Positions 21,547-28,633 of a DNA stretch of 35,551 nt are shown here, one piece after another (the first letter of the stretch is position 1; each line of letters starts with the position of its first letter). Below the pieces are notes generated by a model. That model did no database searches. It saw only the letters and a program-made list of their open reading frames with translations, and was not told where the DNA came from. This DNA is from Owenweeksia sp. GTDB lineage: Bacteria > Bacteroidota > Bacteroidia > Flavobacteriales > Schleiferiaceae. A program made the translations under genes and the position numbers. The stretch covers positions 1 to 35,551 of the forward strand of contig NZNV01000005.1 of NCBI GenBank assembly GCA_002695025.1, read 5' to 3'.

Positions 21547-21570
21547 TGGGGGCGATTGCCCCCATTTTTT
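21545..21570 (+). terminator. Rho-independent terminator of the early operon
   Basis: Nine-base stem AATGGGGGC (21545-21553) and GCCCCCATT (21558-21566) with a GATT loop, followed directly by a T run to 21570. It ends the rightward early operon. The integrase stop lies in the T run, so the two operons converge here. Confidence 0.85.
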
Positions 21571-23092
21571 ATGCTGCTCCTTTTTCATCCTGAATATCCC
21601 TAATCACTTTTAACATGCTTGGCTTTTCTGCATCCCCGGCCAGGTTTCCCTCAGACAGCCAATCAACGTACTTACGTACTTTATTTCGGAACACACTAGG
21701 CACGAACCTACGGTACTTCTCATAGGACTTGGAATTTTTGGAATGCCCGGACATACGCTTTATATCGGCATCATCCATACCCATAATCTGCATATAAGTA
21801 ATGCTGGTCCTTCGCATGGTGTGGGTGGACACCATTTCATACAAGGGCCGTTCTTCTATGATCAGATCACGGGTTTTAGGGTCCCGGTATTCGTGTTTAT
21901 AGATTTCGTGCATACAATCGAATTCTTTGAAGAAAGACTTCAATGTTGGGGACATATTGGATACAAAACTTCTTCGGCTGGTCGTATTCCTTCCCAAAGG
22001 ATGAAAAGCATCACCGTATTTTTTAAGGTTACGTTTAAGCAAATCAGCTACAACGGGATACAAGTATGAATTAACACGGACATTTGTTTTCCGTGTGAGC
22101 TTTTGAAATTCCACCTCTCCATTAACTTCATTTAAGTGCTGTTCAGTAGATTCGTATATATCCGAACCTCTACTGGTGGTGGATAAAGCAAACAGGACAT
22201 AATTATAGGCCCGTTCATGTGGTTTGGATAGTTTATATGGGTCAATCTCATCACTAGCGAATAGTATCTCCATCATTTCCACCGGTAACACAATAGTATC
22301 CGCATCCTCTTCCGGTAACGACAATTTAATCTTGGGTTGGATGAAAGCATATTCGTCAAACCGATTCGTCAAACCAGCCTTAACCTTATGTATAATAGCT
22401 GATATTGAATTAACCCCAAGTTTCTTATTCCCCGGATCAAGTCTTCGCTTTAAATCGCGATCAGCCAGGTAATCGTAGAAACCCTCGAACAGATCATTAT
22501 AAGAATCCCTGATCTGAATGCGCTTATAAGAATCCCTTGTTCTGGACAAGTCAAAATTACTTAATGGCTGATCCAGCTCCATTTCCTCCAGGTACTCCAA
22601 AAAATTCTGAATCTTGAGAGTGTAGGAACGAACAGTGTCTTCCGCAAAGGGTAACCTCTTTCTAGTTTTGATGGTGCCGTTGCCTATTTGCTCCAGGTAT
22701 TCTTTAAGCACCTTACTAAGCAATATCGCATCAAAACTTTCAACAGTATCCCCATTATCTGTGCTACTCAAAGACTGTGGTTTCCTTTTACCTTTATTCT
22801 TAAACTGGCCGGTGATTGCCCTTAACTTTTCGAGGCTACTTACATCCTTTCCTTCAAGAGCCTTTTCTATGCGGTTTTTCAATAACCTGCATTTTGCCGC
22901 CACCTGTCTGGCTTCAACCAACTTACTTTCGGTACAAGTACCTTTGTCAAATTTGGCGCCTGCTGGTAGTTTTAGTCCGGTGCTTATACGGTCTTTAACA
23001 TCCTTCTTACCAGTATGCACCGTAATTATGATAATTCCATTACCTCTCACGGCATACTTTATATCCAAATCGGCATTAACATTGTTATCCAT
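21569..23092 (-). CDS. int: Tyrosine recombinase (prophage integrase)
   Basis: 507 residues from the ATG at 23092 (MDNNVNADLDIKYAV). Going further upstream to 23203 gives a Cys/Ser-rich stretch unlike an integrase N-terminus, so I rejected that start. Residues up to about 175 include a helical arm-binding/linker region, about 125-240 the core-binding domain (ILLSKVLKEYLEQIG, TVRSYTLKIQNFLEYLEEM), and the C-terminal half the catalytic domain: R308 in TTSRGSDI, HTMRR, then GHSKNSKSYEKY with the nucleophile probably Y460. It is read convergently to the early operon. Inserts or excises the phage by site-specific recombination; the likely attachment region is to its right. Confidence 0.9.
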   Translation of the reverse strand: MDNNVNADLDIKYAVRGNGIIIITVHTGKKDVKDRISTGLKLPAGAKFDKGTCTESKLVEARQVAAKCRLLKNRIEKALEGKDVSSLEKLRAITGQFKNKGKRKPQSLSSTDNGDTVESFDAILLSKVLKEYLEQIGNGTIKTRKRLPFAEDTVRSYTLKIQNFLEYLEEMELDQPLSNFDLSRTRDSYKRIQIRDSYNDLFEGFYDYLADRDLKRRLDPGNKKLGVNSISAIIHKVKAGLTNRFDEYAFIQPKIKLSLPEEDADTIVLPVEMMEILFASDEIDPYKLSKPHERAYNYVLFALSTTSRGSDIYESTEQHLNEVNGEVEFQKLTRKTNVRVNSYLYPVVADLLKRNLKKYGDAFHPLGRNTTSRRSFVSNMSPTLKSFFKEFDCMHEIYKHEYRDPKTRDLIIEERPLYEMVSTHTMRRTSITYMQIMGMDDADIKRMSGHSKNSKSYEKYRRFVPSVFRNKVRKYVDWLSEGNLAGDAEKPSMLKVIRDIQDEKGAA

Positions 23093-23222
23093 ACTTTTGA
23101 ATTTATGTTGCTTGGAACAATGGCGAAAAGTACTTCCCCGTTTAGAGGTGATTGCAAAAAAACAGGGGTATCGAAAATGAGTGGGGGACACACCGGGGGA
23201 CACACCGGCCAGTTTTGGTCGA

Positions 23223-23249
23223 TTCCCGAAAAGGTCAAACCTTCGGGAA
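23223..23249. repeat. Inverted repeat (hairpin) beside the terminator
   Basis: TTCCCGAA (23223-23230) and TTCGGGAA (23242-23249) pair perfectly. The interior GGT/ACC adds three pairs after a two-base bulge. No T run follows on either strand, so it is more likely a protein-binding site or a structural partner of the adjacent terminator than a terminator itself. Confidence 0.45.
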
Positions 23250-23256
23250 CCCGCAT

Positions 23257-23283
23257 AAAAAAAGCCCCACCGAAGTGGGGCTT
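23257..23283 (-). terminator. Rho-independent terminator of the HEPN/zinc-ribbon operon
   Basis: Nine-base stem AAGCCCCAC/GTGGGGCTT (23262-23270 and 23275-23283) with a CGAA loop (TTCG on the transcript). On the minus strand it runs into seven T. It lies about 250 bases after the stop of the zinc-ribbon gene and ends that leftward transcript before the integrase. Confidence 0.8.
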
Positions 23284-23373
23284 GATTAACCTAAAAGGTC
23301 AAGTCATGAAACCTCCCCACTGTCTAAAATAATCTAAAGTTATCTAAAGGCGCTTATTTTCAGTACTTATCGT

Positions 23374-23389
23374 AATTGGTTATCCTCTG
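23374..23389. repeat. Direct repeat, left copy (flanks the HEPN module)
   Basis: AATTGGTTATCCTCTG. A copy lacking one T stands at 25510-25524, on the other side of the two-gene HEPN module. The sequence to its right makes an inverted repeat, CCTC TGC GAGG, like a tyrosine-recombinase core site. Confidence 0.5.
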
Positions 23390-23530
23390 CGAGGTTTAAC
23401 AATATTTAATCAAATATAAAGTATCATGGCAATCCCGGACACATTTACCCCCTATTGTGTCCGGCTATGTCCGGCAACGGAATATCGAATGTCCAAATAA
23501 GGTTTTACTAAATAATAGGGGGATTGGATT

Positions 23531-23917
23531 TCAAATAAAGATGTCGATGTCCTTTCCTGATCCGTCACAGTTAGGGTTTATGCACTCAACTTCACCCTGT
23601 AAATCACCAGCCTGAGATTCCAGAAACTTCGTCCCGCACTTCCGACACTTACAGTTCCAGGGAAATTCATTATCACTATACCCCAGATAATTACCAAATA
23701 TAGTATAGGCCTTTTCATAAGTGATCAGTAATTCCCTCGCCTCTTGGTCATTAAGAGAGCCCTTTCTTTTACCATGTATCTTAGCCACTAGGTTACTTTG
23801 GTCCGTAGGGCGATCTGTCAAGCCACTCATCCGAACTATGGCTAATGTTTTGATGAATTCTAATGAACTGAGGCTTTTAATACGCTCTATAATTCCGTTG
23901 GTCTTTGCCACAATCAA
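23531..23917 (-). CDS. Zinc-ribbon protein, partner of the HEPN protein
   Basis: 128 residues read from a TTG at 23917; a GTG two codons later and the ATG at residue 30 are alternatives, so the N-terminus is unsure. Residues 1-85 are helical and basic. Residues about 88-120 form a zinc ribbon with four Cys in the pattern CRKC...CINPNC, between a WNCK stretch and an acidic end. It starts 10 bases after the stop of the HEPN gene, so the two are one operon, and it is followed by the terminator. Low G+C like its neighbour. It might be an antitoxin, an RNA- or DNA-sensing subunit or a substrate adaptor; I cannot decide. Confidence 0.6.
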   Translation of the reverse strand: MIVAKTNGIIERIKSLSSLEFIKTLAIVRMSGLTDRPTDQSNLVAKIHGKRKGSLNDQEARELLITYEKAYTIFGNYLGYSDNEFPWNCKCRKCGTKFLESQAGDLQGEVECINPNCDGSGKDIDIFI

Positions 23918-23927
23918 TAAGTTTATT

Positions 23928-25457
23928 TTAGTTTGGCAATTGGGTGTCTATTTGAAAGGAAGCCACATTACCATCATGTACTTTTTCTCTTTCCTCCCAT
24001 GTTACTCCTAGTGAAAGATAAATAATTGCCTCTCTAGCTAGTTTTAAAACTTTCAAAGCTTTGGCCTGAAGCTCTTCAATAGAAATGGAATATGATAATT
24101 TGTCTTCAAGAAGTTCAGGTGTAAGCTCATTGAGCAAATCATCTTCGTATTCTCTAAAGCCTTTGTGTTCAACATGGTTTCTCATTTTTACCAAGTCAGA
24201 AGCATCTGGTTCCAATGCAGACTTAAAATTATCACTCTCATAAAACAAGTCCTTACTTACCCAATATAAGGCGCGAAACATAAGATTTGGCTTTGAAGTA
24301 AAAACTTCTCTTAGCTGCTTATTCCGATCTGACCATACTTTCCTAAAGCTAACATCATGCTCTTTAATGCCTAAGTCAAGATAGTAATTCAGGAAATAAC
24401 CCACTTTATCAAATAAAGAATAGGCAATCCTAAAGCCTGTCTTTAGGTGTTCAACCCTCATCGAGTGTACAGATGAATCAAGCATTTCAAATTTTAAAAC
24501 ATGCTTATCAGCATAGTGTTGGGAGTGTTCCTTGAAACCTTTGAATAAAAAGACTCGGGCACTTATATACTCCTGCTTGATCTGATTAAAGAAGCTGTGG
24601 TATGAACCAGCTTTTTCTCTATTTACCACCATAGTGGGTAAGGCAAATGGATCATGGGTTGCAATTGGGTAAGGACCCAAATCGTTCAGGGGGTTCAGAA
24701 AAAGAGTATTATTTAAGCACCATTCTCTGTAGAGCTTTTCTTCAGTGGAAGAAGTCTCAGAAACCACGTTTAAATCAGGGGAGTAATCCAAAACCCAGGG
24801 GCTTTCAGATTCCAGCGTTTTTACAGCCTTTCTATAATATTCTAATGCATTCTGGTACATTGGAAACTCGATTGCTCTTTTTAAATACTTATAGCCCAAG
24901 CCAACGTATATACTTTTATGTCCTGCATCATATAAGCTATTGAAGCCAGTATAGATCATACTATTGCCTTTAGCACCCAAAGCCATAGGAAAGTTCGAGT
25001 CAATCTCAATCGCCTTATTCCAATTTTCCAATGCTGCGACAAACCTCCCACAGAAGTCAAAACTATTTGCAAGATTGGTATGAATCTGACAAAGACGGGA
25101 ACTTGAATCTTCAATTTTGATAGGATCAAAATACTTTACTGCACTTCTTAGGTTGATAATTTCTTGTTCGACTTGTGTATGGTCCCACTTCCAGGCTTCA
25201 GAATAAGATTGGTTCTTGTGTCGTATATCAGCCCAGGCCACACTTAGGTAATAATGATACACACTCCGTTTTGTAGGAAATAGGGATGAGGACTCTATTT
25301 TTTGAGACAAGTCGATAGCCTTGTTTGCTCCCAAATCTGTTCCTAAATCATTTGAAAGCTCAATAAGTTCCAAAAATACATTCAAAGCCTCTTCTTCCGA
25401 GTACCCCTCTAAAGATTCAATTTCCAAAAGCTTAGTTAGCTTATCACTCTTATTCAT
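23928..25457 (-). CDS. LA2681-like HEPN protein with TPR-like N-terminus (putative RNase)
   Basis: 509 residues from the ATG at 25457. A TTG at 25493 lies upstream of the -7 box and is rejected. Residues about 1-230 are helical repeats of TPR type, with a clear repeat in AALENWNKAIEIDSNFPMAL. The C-terminal third matches the LA2681-type HEPN family, with the Rx4H motif intact as R426-N-H-V-E-H431 (MRNHVEHKGF). HEPN proteins with this motif are usually metal-independent ribonucleases in toxin-antitoxin, abortive-infection or CRISPR-type defence. Two rows that I counted had about one-third G+C, against about half in phage and efflux genes, so it was probably acquired separately. The position beside the integrase suggests phage- or island-borne defence cargo. 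Target RNA and trigger are unknown. Confidence 0.75.
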   Translation of the reverse strand: MNKSDKLTKLLEIESLEGYSEEEALNVFLELIELSNDLGTDLGANKAIDLSQKIESSSLFPTKRSVYHYYLSVAWADIRHKNQSYSEAWKWDHTQVEQEIINLRSAVKYFDPIKIEDSSSRLCQIHTNLANSFDFCGRFVAALENWNKAIEIDSNFPMALGAKGNSMIYTGFNSLYDAGHKSIYVGLGYKYLKRAIEFPMYQNALEYYRKAVKTLESESPWVLDYSPDLNVVSETSSTEEKLYREWCLNNTLFLNPLNDLGPYPIATHDPFALPTMVVNREKAGSYHSFFNQIKQEYISARVFLFKGFKEHSQHYADKHVLKFEMLDSSVHSMRVEHLKTGFRIAYSLFDKVGYFLNYYLDLGIKEHDVSFRKVWSDRNKQLREVFTSKPNLMFRALYWVSKDLFYESDNFKSALEPDASDLVKMRNHVEHKGFREYEDDLLNELTPELLEDKLSYSISIEELQAKALKVLKLAREAIIYLSLGVTWEEREKVHDGNVASFQIDTQLPN

Positions 25458-25480
25458 TTCAAGGCTTTTTGTTGATAGTA

Positions 25481-25511
25481 CAAAGTAAAACAACGGAGAA
25501 GTTACTTGAAA
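25481..25511 (-). promoter_or_regulatory. Probable promoter of the HEPN operon
   Basis: On the minus strand: TTTC (25508-25511), a 20-base spacer, TACTTTG (25481-25487), then about 23 bases to the ATG at 25457. The -7 box is one base short of TAnnTTTG. It overlaps by two bases the right-hand copy of the direct repeat, so the repeat and promoter share bases. Confidence 0.4.
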
Positions 25512-25524
25512 TTGGTATCCTCTG
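25510..25524. repeat. Direct repeat, right copy (flanks the HEPN module)
   Basis: AATTGGTATCCTCTG, identical to the left copy at 23374-23389 except for one missing T. It lies between the HEPN promoter and the end of the RND pump gene, a plausible junction between cargo and host DNA. Confidence 0.5.
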
Positions 25525-25549
25525 ATTTAATGGCTATTCATAAAACAGG

Positions 25550-28500
25550 TTATTTGTGCTTTATCAAGCTGTAAACCGATGGTATCACCAACAAATTCAG
25601 CACGGTTGCAGTCAGCAACCCACCCAGGATCACTACCGCCATAGGGCTTTGAATTTCATTACCCGGCTCGCCTCCTTTTAAAGCCAGTGGGATAAGAGCC
25701 AATGCAGTAGTAAGGGCCGTCATGATGATCGGGTTCAAACGATCCAAGGTTCCTTTTAAAATAAGGCCTTCACCTTTTTCGCCCTCTTTTTCCAAATCCT
25801 GGTAACGCGAAATAAGCAGAATACCGTTTCGCGTAGCAATACCAAACAAGCTGATAAAGCCAATGGTAGCTGCAATACTGATGATACCAGAAGTGAAATA
25901 CACGATTAAGATTCCTCCGATCAAAGCCAGCGGTAAGTTCAGCAAAACAATACCGGCCAGCTTCAAATCCCTGAACTCAAAATAAAGCAATAGGTAAATG
26001 ACCAGGATAGCCAGTGCAGCGGTGATCAATAGCATCTGTGAAGCTTTAGCCTCACTTTCAAACTGACCGCCATACTCAACCCGATAACCTTGGGGAAGAT
26101 TGATTCCCGCTTTTACGTTTTCCTGTAACTCCGTTACGACTCCCCGCAAATCCCGTCCCTGCACGTTTGCTGACACCACTACTTTGCGCTGTACATCTTC
26201 CCGGCTGATTCGGTTGGGGCTGCTTACTGAACTGATCTTAGCCACCTCGGAAATCGGTACACGGCTACCGTTTGGTAAGTCCACCAATGCATTGCGTATT
26301 TCCTCCAAGCTTCCGCGAAAATCTTCCTTATAACGTACTACCAGATCAAAGTGCTTTTGCCCCTCATAAACCTGTCCCACTGCTTCACCACCAAAGGCCA
26401 CTTCCACAAAGTGCATAAGGTCAGCAGCCGTCATACCATAGGCTGACAAAAGTGTGCGATTTGGAGTAATACGGATTTGAGGTACTTCCACTTGTTGTTC
26501 AACGGATACATCAGCCAAGCCCTCAATATTTTCAGCGATCCCTTTTACCTCTTTACCCAGACCATAGAGACGGGCGAGGTCTTCCCCAAAGAGCTTCACG
26601 GCAATGTTCGCTCTGGTCCCTGAAAGCATGTGGTCTATACGGTGGGCAATAGGTTGTCCAATAGTGATGTTCACTCCGGGAACCACGCTAAGCTTTTCGC
26701 GAACCTCCTCAAAAAACTCCTCTTTGCTTTGACCATCTTCCAGTGTAAAAGGCGCATCAATCTCAGCTGCATTTACCCCTTGTGCGTGTTCATCCAACTC
26801 TGCCCGTCCGGTTCTGCGTGTAACCACTGTAACTTGCGGCATGTCCAGCAATAACTCTTCAACCTGTTTTCCGGTTTTGTTGCTTTCCTCCAATGACATG
26901 CCCGGTAAGCCTACCACACTGATGACCAGAGAGCCTTCATTGAATTCCGGCAGAAAACTTCGTCCCAATTGAAAAAAGAGCACCAGGCTTACCAGGAAAA
27001 CGGCAATTGTAGCCCCGATTACCCATTTGGAATACTTCAACGATTTATGGAGAATGCGGGAATAACCGTTCCGCAGCCATCGCTCTGTTCTGGTACCTTC
27101 CGATTGCTTTTGCAACAACTTTTCCTTTTTAAGCAAATAGGAACACAGCACTGGAGTAAGCGTAACTGCCACGATCAATGAAGTCAGCACCGAAGTAATA
27201 AAGGCAATGCCGAGCGGGGTCAATAAGCGGCCTTCCATACCACTGAGAAAGAAAAGAGGTATAAACGAAACGATGATGATCAATGTGGCAATGATAATTG
27301 AGCTTCTGATCTCAGCAGAGGCATCCTGTACCACTTTAAGGACCGGCTCCCGCTGATCTTTTGGTAAGGCGGCATTTTGACGCAGGCGTTTGAAAACATT
27401 TTCCACATCAATAATGGCATCATCCACCAAAGCACCAATGGCGATGGCCATACCGCCCAGGCTCATGGTGTTGATGGTATATCCCAGCAGGTTTAAAACG
27501 ATTACCGAGACCAGAAGCGAAAGAGGTATGGCCAGCAATGAAATGACCGTGGTACGCCAGTTCATCAGGAAAATGAAAAGCACCAGTACTACAAAGAAAG
27601 CCCCTTCCAGCAAAGTTTGCTGAAGGTTGTTGATGGAGGCGTTGATGAAGTCCGCTTGCCGAAAAATGTGACTTTTGATCTCCACACTTTCAGGTAACGT
27701 TTCATTCATTTTGGTTAAAGCTTCTTCCATCCGCCCGGTCAGTTCCAGCGTGTTGACATCCGGCTGCTTGGTAATGGTCATGATCACAGCCGGAGAAGCA
27801 TTGAGCGAACCATCACCGATCTTATCGGCTGCCCCAATTTTCACTTGGGTCACATCCGAAATCCTGATGGGTTGGTCATTTACTTCTTTGATCAATGCCT
27901 CTTGCAGATCATCCACATCATAAGCACGCCCTTCGCCTTTGATGTTGTACTGGTTGCCAAACTCGTTGTAAAAACCGCCCGTTGTATTCACATTGGCAGC
28001 TTCCACCGCTTGTTGTAATTCTTCCAGACTAATCCCATAATGTTTCATTCGGTTGGGATTGGCCAGCACCTGGTATTGCTTGTATTCACCACCTATGACG
28101 ATCACATTGGCAATACCCCCCAAGGCCTTCAGTTGCGGCCTTATCGTCCAATCCGCGAGGGTACGTAATTCCATTGGCGACAAACTGTCGGAACGCACCC
28201 CTAACAGCATCACTTCACCCATAATCGATGAAATTGGAGCCATGGTAGGTTCACCAATGCCCTGCGGCAATTTTTCCCGCACAGCGGGAATACGCTCGCT
28301 TACAATCTGCCGGGCGCGGTAGATATCCGTATCCCAATCAAATTCTACCCAAACAATGGAAATACCAGCAGCCGAAGATGATCTGATCCTGCGGACATTG
28401 GGCGCTCCGTTCATAGCTGTTTCCAATTGGAAGGTCACCAGCTTTTCCACTTCCTCGGATTCCATGCCGTGTGCCTCGGTCAGTAGGGTTACGGTAGGAG

Positions 28501-28633
28501 CGGTAAGGTCGGGAAACACATCCACGTTCATGTTGCGGGCAACGTAGATACCCGATACCGTCAGCACCAATGCTGTAAGGAGCACCAGTAAGCGGTTATG
28601 CAGGGATATGTCAAGAATTCTATTTAGCATCAT
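25550..28633 (-). CDS. Heavy-metal efflux RND pump, CzcA/CusA type
   Basis: 1027 residues, the usual length for HME-RND pumps. It opens with an inner-membrane helix (NRLLVLLTALVLTVSGIYVA, about 13-32) and shows the family pattern MNVDVFPDLTAPTVTLLTEA, a large periplasmic region, a first helix bundle (about 337-535) with the proton-relay motif GALVDDAIIDVEN (D404, D405), a second periplasmic domain, and a last bundle (about 855-1020) ending with 'GIATRNGILLISRYQDL' and 'NLLVIPSVYSLI'. It pumps metal ions from the periplasm through the adaptor and outer-membrane factor encoded just upstream. The metal (Cu/Ag or Zn/Co/Ni/Cd) cannot be read from the sequence. It is the last gene of the operon; no clear terminator follows. 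Confidence 0.9.
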   Translation of the reverse strand: MMLNRILDISLHNRLLVLLTALVLTVSGIYVARNMNVDVFPDLTAPTVTLLTEAHGMESEEVEKLVTFQLETAMNGAPNVRRIRSSSAAGISIVWVEFDWDTDIYRARQIVSERIPAVREKLPQGIGEPTMAPISSIMGEVMLLGVRSDSLSPMELRTLADWTIRPQLKALGGIANVIVIGGEYKQYQVLANPNRMKHYGISLEELQQAVEAANVNTTGGFYNEFGNQYNIKGEGRAYDVDDLQEALIKEVNDQPIRISDVTQVKIGAADKIGDGSLNASPAVIMTITKQPDVNTLELTGRMEEALTKMNETLPESVEIKSHIFRQADFINASINNLQQTLLEGAFFVVLVLFIFLMNWRTTVISLLAIPLSLLVSVIVLNLLGYTINTMSLGGMAIAIGALVDDAIIDVENVFKRLRQNAALPKDQREPVLKVVQDASAEIRSSIIIATLIIIVSFIPLFFLSGMEGRLLTPLGIAFITSVLTSLIVAVTLTPVLCSYLLKKEKLLQKQSEGTRTERWLRNGYSRILHKSLKYSKWVIGATIAVFLVSLVLFFQLGRSFLPEFNEGSLVISVVGLPGMSLEESNKTGKQVEELLLDMPQVTVVTRRTGRAELDEHAQGVNAAEIDAPFTLEDGQSKEEFFEEVREKLSVVPGVNITIGQPIAHRIDHMLSGTRANIAVKLFGEDLARLYGLGKEVKGIAENIEGLADVSVEQQVEVPQIRITPNRTLLSAYGMTAADLMHFVEVAFGGEAVGQVYEGQKHFDLVVRYKEDFRGSLEEIRNALVDLPNGSRVPISEVAKISSVSSPNRISREDVQRKVVVSANVQGRDLRGVVTELQENVKAGINLPQGYRVEYGGQFESEAKASQMLLITAALAILVIYLLLYFEFRDLKLAGIVLLNLPLALIGGILIVYFTSGIISIAATIGFISLFGIATRNGILLISRYQDLEKEGEKGEGLILKGTLDRLNPIIMTALTTALALIPLALKGGEPGNEIQSPMAVVILGGLLTATVLNLLVIPSVYSLIKHK

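Follow-up and report, generated by a model that had tools for sequence, protein, structure and literature searches.

An LA2681-family TPR-HEPN gene, probably a stand-alone candidate effector, beside an integrase-linked zinc-ribbon gene at a prophage border

The question raised by this locus is whether two closely spaced genes at the border of a prophage, one for a TPR-HEPN protein and the other for a small zinc-ribbon protein, form a new two-gene defence system, as the original prediction proposed, or whether the HEPN gene is better regarded as an effector in its own right. The window, by which we mean the whole stretch of DNA that was analysed, is the entire contig C8 (35,551 bases). The features discussed are the following.

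23928–25457, minus strand: TPR-HEPN protein of the LA2681 family (509 amino acids, ATG start, intact open reading frame)
24711–25457, minus strand: N-terminal TPR superhelix, the presumed sensor (residues ~1–249; TPR_1 match, AlphaFold2 model and fold listings)
23976–24620, minus strand: C-terminal HEPN domain, the presumed RNase (residues ~280–494; PF18733 and model helices)
24165–24182, minus strand: Rx4H active-site motif, R426-N-H-V-E-H431 (alignment of 82 sequences)
23531–23917, minus strand: small zinc-ribbon protein (~124–128 amino acids), linked to the integrase and not a conserved HEPN partner
23242–23312, minus strand: integrase leader with a hairpin terminator (hairpin at 23262–23283), conserved at four integrase copies
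21569–23203, minus strand: tyrosine integrase of the prophage (544 amino acids; PHROG and Pfam)

Read along the minus strand, the HEPN gene is followed after a gap of 10 bases by the zinc-ribbon gene and then by the integrase, beyond which lie phage genes, mostly on the plus strand. The integrase matches the PHROG integrase family phrog_1 (E = 1.7 × 10−13) and Pfam Phage_integrase (E = 1.1 × 10−4), the latter with 22.5 bits and hence under the cut-off of 27.1. No relative of it was detected at E ≤ 10−3 among the neighbours of the 80 HEPN loci described below, in a search without a positive control. Ten phage-side proteins were scanned against PHROG: seven have named functions (virion structural protein, endolysin, repressor-like regulator, Erf-like, RecE-like, primase-helicase and SSB), one belongs to an unknown family and two are without a match. 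The two genes lie next to an integrase at a prophage border, as predicted. On the other side, the HEPN gene starts 92 bases past the stop of a co-directional pump gene (25550–28633; 1,027 amino acids) that we read as cusA-like, and its reading frame could be extended to a TTG at 25493. The predicted zinc-ribbon frame of 128 residues is present, with a TTG start 10 bases past the HEPN gene (a GTG lies at 16 bases) and its end at 23531; its paralogues point to a start a few codons later (124–126 amino acids).

The HEPN protein itself is as it was predicted to be, with TPR repeats and a C-terminal HEPN domain whose R426 and H431 are intact. It matches Pfam PF18733 (HEPN_LA2681) over residues 280–487 (E = 1.3 × 10−60, 204.7 bits, cut-off 27) and TPR_1 over residues 125–156 (32.6 bits, cut-off 27.8). 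In an alignment of 82 HEPN sequences, made up of the window, one viral contig and 80 loci, with the relatives L002–L004 left out, R426 and E430 occur in all 82, N427 in 78 and H431 in 81; R426 and H431 are kept together in 81, the sole exception being L098, which has K in place of H431. The AlphaFold2 model (pLDDT 92.1, pTM 0.92) has a TPR superhelix at residues ~1–249 and a helical HEPN part at residues ~280–494. When the N-terminal part (residues 1–226) is compared with solved structures, by profile or by fold, TPR proteins come out on top, and most of the VIA-align listing for the whole model consists of TPR proteins (best Z 15.9, rmsd 2.5, 125 aligned). Foldseek with the whole model had no match that reached E ≤ 0.001, the proteins it listed being TPR or other, mostly helical-repeat, ones. 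Because these fold searches used the whole protein, the absence of a HEPN fold from them is uninformative and the identity of the HEPN half rests on Pfam. A score above the profile cut-off, an intact Rx4-6H motif and the TPR fusion place the protein in HEPN_LA2681 (PF18733), and it is the single member of the family encoded in its genome. Neither it nor the zinc-ribbon protein matches any PADLOC-DB v2 family at E ≤ 1. We infer, in agreement with the original prediction, that this LA2681-like protein is probably an RNase and that it likely acts in defence.

The architecture had been thought not to be a described one, which is not supported. Anantharaman et al. (2013; PMC3710099) tabulate the LA2681 HEPN as active, ‘Fused to TPR, and in operon with TPR’ and ‘Bacteria > Archaea’ in the part of that paper available to us, and PLSDB plasmid annotation already uses ‘LA2681 family HEPN domain-containing protein’. 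In the open literature searched, we found the LA2681 HEPN named in PMC3710099 only, and PF18733 nowhere. The accessible portions of PMC13092281, PMC9122126, PMC11087260, PMC12839542, PMC9519451 and PMC10799925 describe no TPR-HEPN of the LA2681 family as a tested defence, although several of these papers report HEPN systems without a family name, among which, supplements included, an LA2681 member could hide. The HEPN gene of the window is an intact, ordinary member of a known, apparently uncharacterised family.

A scan of the genome collection with an alignment of seven HEPN sequences gave 240 confirmed relatives, the best 80 of which were kept as loci; these best 80 come from many bacterial phyla and some archaea. 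The spread is patchy, with 9 of the 295 genomes of the window’s class matching at E ≤ 0.001, four of which (the window included) align beyond the TPR stretch. Relatives were also present in 14 plasmid records, in one phage record and in one viral contig (L015), the viral contigs having been searched with one protein as query, which limits the result to close relatives. The family varies in its gene arrangement. On a Haloplanus plasmid (L020:5860–7484), the annotation gives two genes that overlap, one for the TPR part and one for the LA2681 HEPN part, and an AAA ATPase and a MazEF-like pair come next. In Chryseobacterium tagetis (L090:7995–11242), the LA2681 gene and a gene for a 576-residue DUF4209 protein overlap by 4 bases; DUF4209 is linked to a HEPN family in the part of PMC3710099 available, and the two genes are a possible two-HEPN pair.

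Co-occurrence of the HEPN and zinc-ribbon genes across genomes was the test that the original prediction had set for itself. We assembled 89 HEPN loci (the 80 kept loci plus one viral contig, six plasmids and two genomes) and searched their 9,182 open reading frames of at least 40 amino acids with a profile of the zinc-ribbon family. At E ≤ 10 the profile matched in none of the 89 loci and recovered all three known copies as a positive control; it is built on three sequences from one genome, and distant forms could escape it. There is room for such a gene in 87 of the loci, where the sequence continues for 400 bases or more past the HEPN gene. A family-free search for small same-strand frames with two Cys pairs within 400 bases of the HEPN gene returned four candidates, none of them zinc-ribbon-like and one (L051) HNH-like by eye. 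Among 49 whole HEPN-bearing genomes, in a search that held no positive genome, there was likewise no zinc-ribbon relative. Even the commonest neighbour family within 300 bases, a type I specificity subunit, accompanies no more than 6 of the 89 HEPN genes, and such variety is as expected of a one-gene effector. The claim of a dedicated zinc-ribbon partner fails on these counts and on the behaviour of the zinc-ribbon gene elsewhere in its own genome.

That genome has three copies of the zinc-ribbon gene, the paralogues on contigs C18 and C15 being 47% and 43% identical to that of the window. Each precedes, on the same strand, an integrase of one family, and only the copy in the window has a HEPN gene. 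On C15, one opposite-strand frame lies between the zinc-ribbon gene and the integrase, and a 138-residue frame without a Pfam family overlaps the zinc-ribbon gene from upstream; on C18, the upstream gene is divergent and is read by us as a response regulator. In the simplest reading, zinc ribbon and integrase are a fixed pair, with an upstream slot that holds the HEPN gene on C8, another frame on C15 and nothing on C18. The region upstream of the pair on C15 (L016:1–6492) contains an SRAP-family gene and several frames without Pfam families, and may be a further element of this type that carries different cargo.

The last ~45 residues of the zinc-ribbon protein form a Cys-rich ribbon, which resembles HVO_2901 (NCBIfam NF041915) without belonging to it (24 bits against a cut-off of 80, E = 2.5 × 10−5). 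Pfam has no family for the protein at E ≤ 1, comparing the zinc-ribbon family profile with solved structures yielded only weak matches (best E = 0.19), and the single-sequence model (pLDDT 47.8) is too poor to use. In 395 genomes from the phylum, and in 60 relatives, the three-copy profile picked up nothing beyond the copies of its own genome; searches of viral contigs, plasmids and phage records with the single sequence confirmed no relative. Weak single-protein matches in two genomes, G220 (E = 3.2 × 10−4) and G214 (E = 8.3 × 10−4), were dropped, the three-sequence profile being silent on them at E ≤ 10 with the window copy as control. The protein is perhaps a DNA-binding regulator or an accessory of integration.

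These observations bear on whether the two genes could still be a true module in which the zinc ribbon serves as antitoxin, regulator or co-factor of the HEPN RNase. The shared strand and the 10-base gap speak for it, as might the zinc-ribbon N-terminus, which is predicted, with very low confidence, to be helical and could bind DNA. They are set against the lack of any zinc-ribbon relative in the HEPN loci and HEPN-bearing genomes, the failure of the Cys-pair check to find a distant form, the two copies of three that do without a HEPN gene and keep the integrase, and the different gene that lies close upstream on C15. We therefore consider such a module very unlikely, and the pair is probably not a new two-gene defence system.

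Base composition separates the genes in the same way. The HEPN gene has 37.5% G+C, the lowest among the regions compared; the zinc-ribbon gene (41.6%) has the value of the integrase (41.5%), and the pump gene (47.8%) and the phage region at 1–21406 (47.4%) are higher. The two genes had been described as much poorer in G+C than their surroundings: the direction stands, and the figure of 32–33% does not. The difference between the two genes is a further point against a module. That between the HEPN gene and the pump gene bears on another explanation, in which the HEPN gene would be a host housekeeping or metal-stress gene of a cus-like operon, unrelated to the prophage. Its start, 92 bases past the cusA-like stop on the same strand, would fit such an operon, but the compositions differ (37.5 versus 47.8%), the family occurs patchily and, among the clusters listed, no single pump family stands beside relatives in more than 2 of 80 loci, all of which makes membership in a pump operon most improbable.

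One promoter and one terminator had been assigned to the two genes, and neither is upheld. A sigma-70 scan to 25700 and a search with a Bacteroidota-type consensus to 25760 revealed nothing promoter-like ahead of the HEPN gene. The sole terminator-like hairpin in 23100–25700 is that at 23262–23283, ~250 bases past the zinc-ribbon stop, and it belongs to the integrase leader. The leader and its hairpin precede all four integrase copies whose start is assembled: a 106-base query against the rest of the genome (E ≤ 0.001) matched only on C18 (95% over 83 bases), C15 (100% over 63 bases) and C3 (94% over 71 bases). As C3 has the leader and no zinc-ribbon gene, the hairpin goes with the integrase. 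The leader is 94–100% identical among these copies (window:23242–23312, L016, L017 and L111), whereas the three other integrase proteins are only 58–66% identical to that of the window; it could be an attenuator or an attachment-related site. No Rfam family reached its gathering threshold in the window. Since the HEPN and zinc-ribbon genes lie so close together, their co-transcription is likely, and regulation of the HEPN gene by the zinc ribbon is possible in this one genome.

The exact limit of the element was sought with 141 bases around the 5′ end of the HEPN gene, for which no further copy turned up, only short matches (best E = 0.157). In the two genomes of the same genus the best matches to the pump gene are 35% identical, and with no close orthologue there is no uninterrupted site for comparison. 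The block before the integrase, a candidate for the attachment core, contains the terminator and sits within the region common to the zinc-ribbon-bearing copies. As the attachment site was not found, the placement of the HEPN gene within the element is putative.

To what extent the family is associated with defence can be judged from the neighbours of its other members. Among the 80 HEPN loci, HsdM-like proteins occur in 12, HsdS-like in 7 and HsdR-like in 6, with at least one of the three in 14; in 33 control stretches from HEPN-bearing genomes (all that existed of 40 sought), a small and not fully matched set that always starts 3 kb into contig 1, there is one HsdM-like and one HsdS-like protein, both in the same stretch, and no HsdR-like protein. 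Representatives of the Hsd clusters match type I M and R subunits whose structures have been solved, as well as specificity subunit families (Pfam, PADLOC and solved structures). The nearest neighbours, defined as the first protein of at least 150 amino acids on each side (142 proteins, scanned in two halves), matched 275 + 259 PADLOC models and the control proteins (130) 0 + 17, which are counts of models, inflated by redundant type I models, and not of proteins. For the control, 142 frames were drawn and 130 scanned, 12 frames at stretch edges being left out and five others at edges kept. Seven of ten hand-picked neighbours match PADLOC: PrrC (L074), QatA (L099), AbiU (L057), PDC-S05 (L071), a type I specificity subunit (L078), and a Pycsar cyclase and a TIR effector, both beside the HEPN relative of L015; those in L036, L039 and L060 have no PADLOC match. 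Four of the six plasmid relatives viewed lie near helicase, methyltransferase, NACHT or HNH genes, one lies near an AAA ATPase and a MazF-like toxin, and one is among hypothetical genes. By its company, the LA2681 HEPN family looks like defence. Two loci are of interest in themselves. In L074 (7995–10650), PrrC directly follows the TPR-HEPN gene inside a type I restriction locus, placing two presumed RNase effectors in one locus. The TPR-HEPN relative on an IMG/VR viral contig (L015:5998–9246) adjoins the Pycsar cyclase and TIR effector, with what we read as an integrase-like frame on one side and a portal-like frame on the other; this is likely a prophage defence hotspot.

The window itself offers no such company: the neighbours of its HEPN gene are phage, integrase and pump genes, with no defence genes, which counts against a defence role here. 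An RNase that serves the prophage rather than general defence, for example in lysogeny or in superinfection exclusion against related phages, would be in keeping with the adjoining integrase, with the integrase-like and phage-like frames that we read in L015 next to the Pycsar pair, and with the precedent of prophage HEPN defence by Tha as presented in the available part of PMC11087260. However, the relatives are found on bacterial and archaeal genome contigs (240) and on plasmids (14 records), often among restriction or other defence genes, and the viral relatives are one phage record and one viral contig, the latter from a query confined to close relatives. Taken together, we hold a prophage-serving RNase to be unlikely. 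Quite unlikely, too, is an arrangement in which the zinc ribbon, as a regulator associated with three integrases of one genome, drives the cargo slot, so that expression of a captured TPR-HEPN RNase would follow the state of the prophage as a lysogeny-controlled defence.

We favour the reading that the HEPN gene is probably a stand-alone accessory LA2681 effector, carried as cargo between host-like genes and the zinc-ribbon–integrase end of the prophage. A TPR superhelix, confidently predicted, leads into a HEPN domain whose sequence shows the complete R-N-x-x-E-H motif. By analogy with the HEPN superfamily, two HEPN domains would pair, their two motifs forming a composite RNase site. The TPR arm may lock the enzyme; once the arm binds a phage product or senses a disturbed host process, the released HEPN domain would cleave cellular RNA and stop both growth and the phage. 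The zinc-ribbon gene would stand apart from this, tied to the integrase and perhaps acting on DNA or in integration. Widespread, with a near-invariant motif, often found among defence genes and without a match in PADLOC-DB v2, the LA2681 TPR-HEPN family is a clear, apparently uncharacterised candidate for one-gene RNase defence, and recognizing that the zinc ribbon goes with the integrase avoids the naming of a false two-gene system.

Of known systems, the closest is the LA2681 family itself (PF18733; PMC3710099), which, as far as the available part of its description goes, has the same C-terminal active-motif HEPN and N-terminal TPR; we found no difference in the protein, and the setting beside a zinc-ribbon gene and an integrase is particular to the window. 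HEPN-MNT toxin–antitoxin pairs likewise combine a HEPN RNase with a small neighbouring gene, but the neighbour here is a zinc-ribbon protein without a Pfam family and not a nucleotidyltransferase. With no minimal nucleotidyltransferase adjacent, only the zinc-ribbon protein and the 1,027-residue pump-like protein, we rejected membership in that class. PrrC-type RNases occur among hsd genes, as some LA2681 relatives do, and one relative (L074) is directly beside PrrC; PrrC carries an ABC-type ATPase (PMC3710099, in the part available), whereas the LA2681 proteins carry TPRs. Tha from Staphylococcus aureus prophages comes closest among the worked-out prophage HEPN RNases that we met, and it may serve by analogy as a model; it is described in the accessible part of PMC11087260 as having a C-terminal HEPN with Rx4H and providing defence as a non-specific RNase. 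Tha-1 is given there as 301 amino acids long with no discernible N-terminal domain. The likeness, drawn from description and not from sequence, is that of a prophage-borne Rx4H HEPN in both cases, with the long TPR arm present only in the protein of the window.
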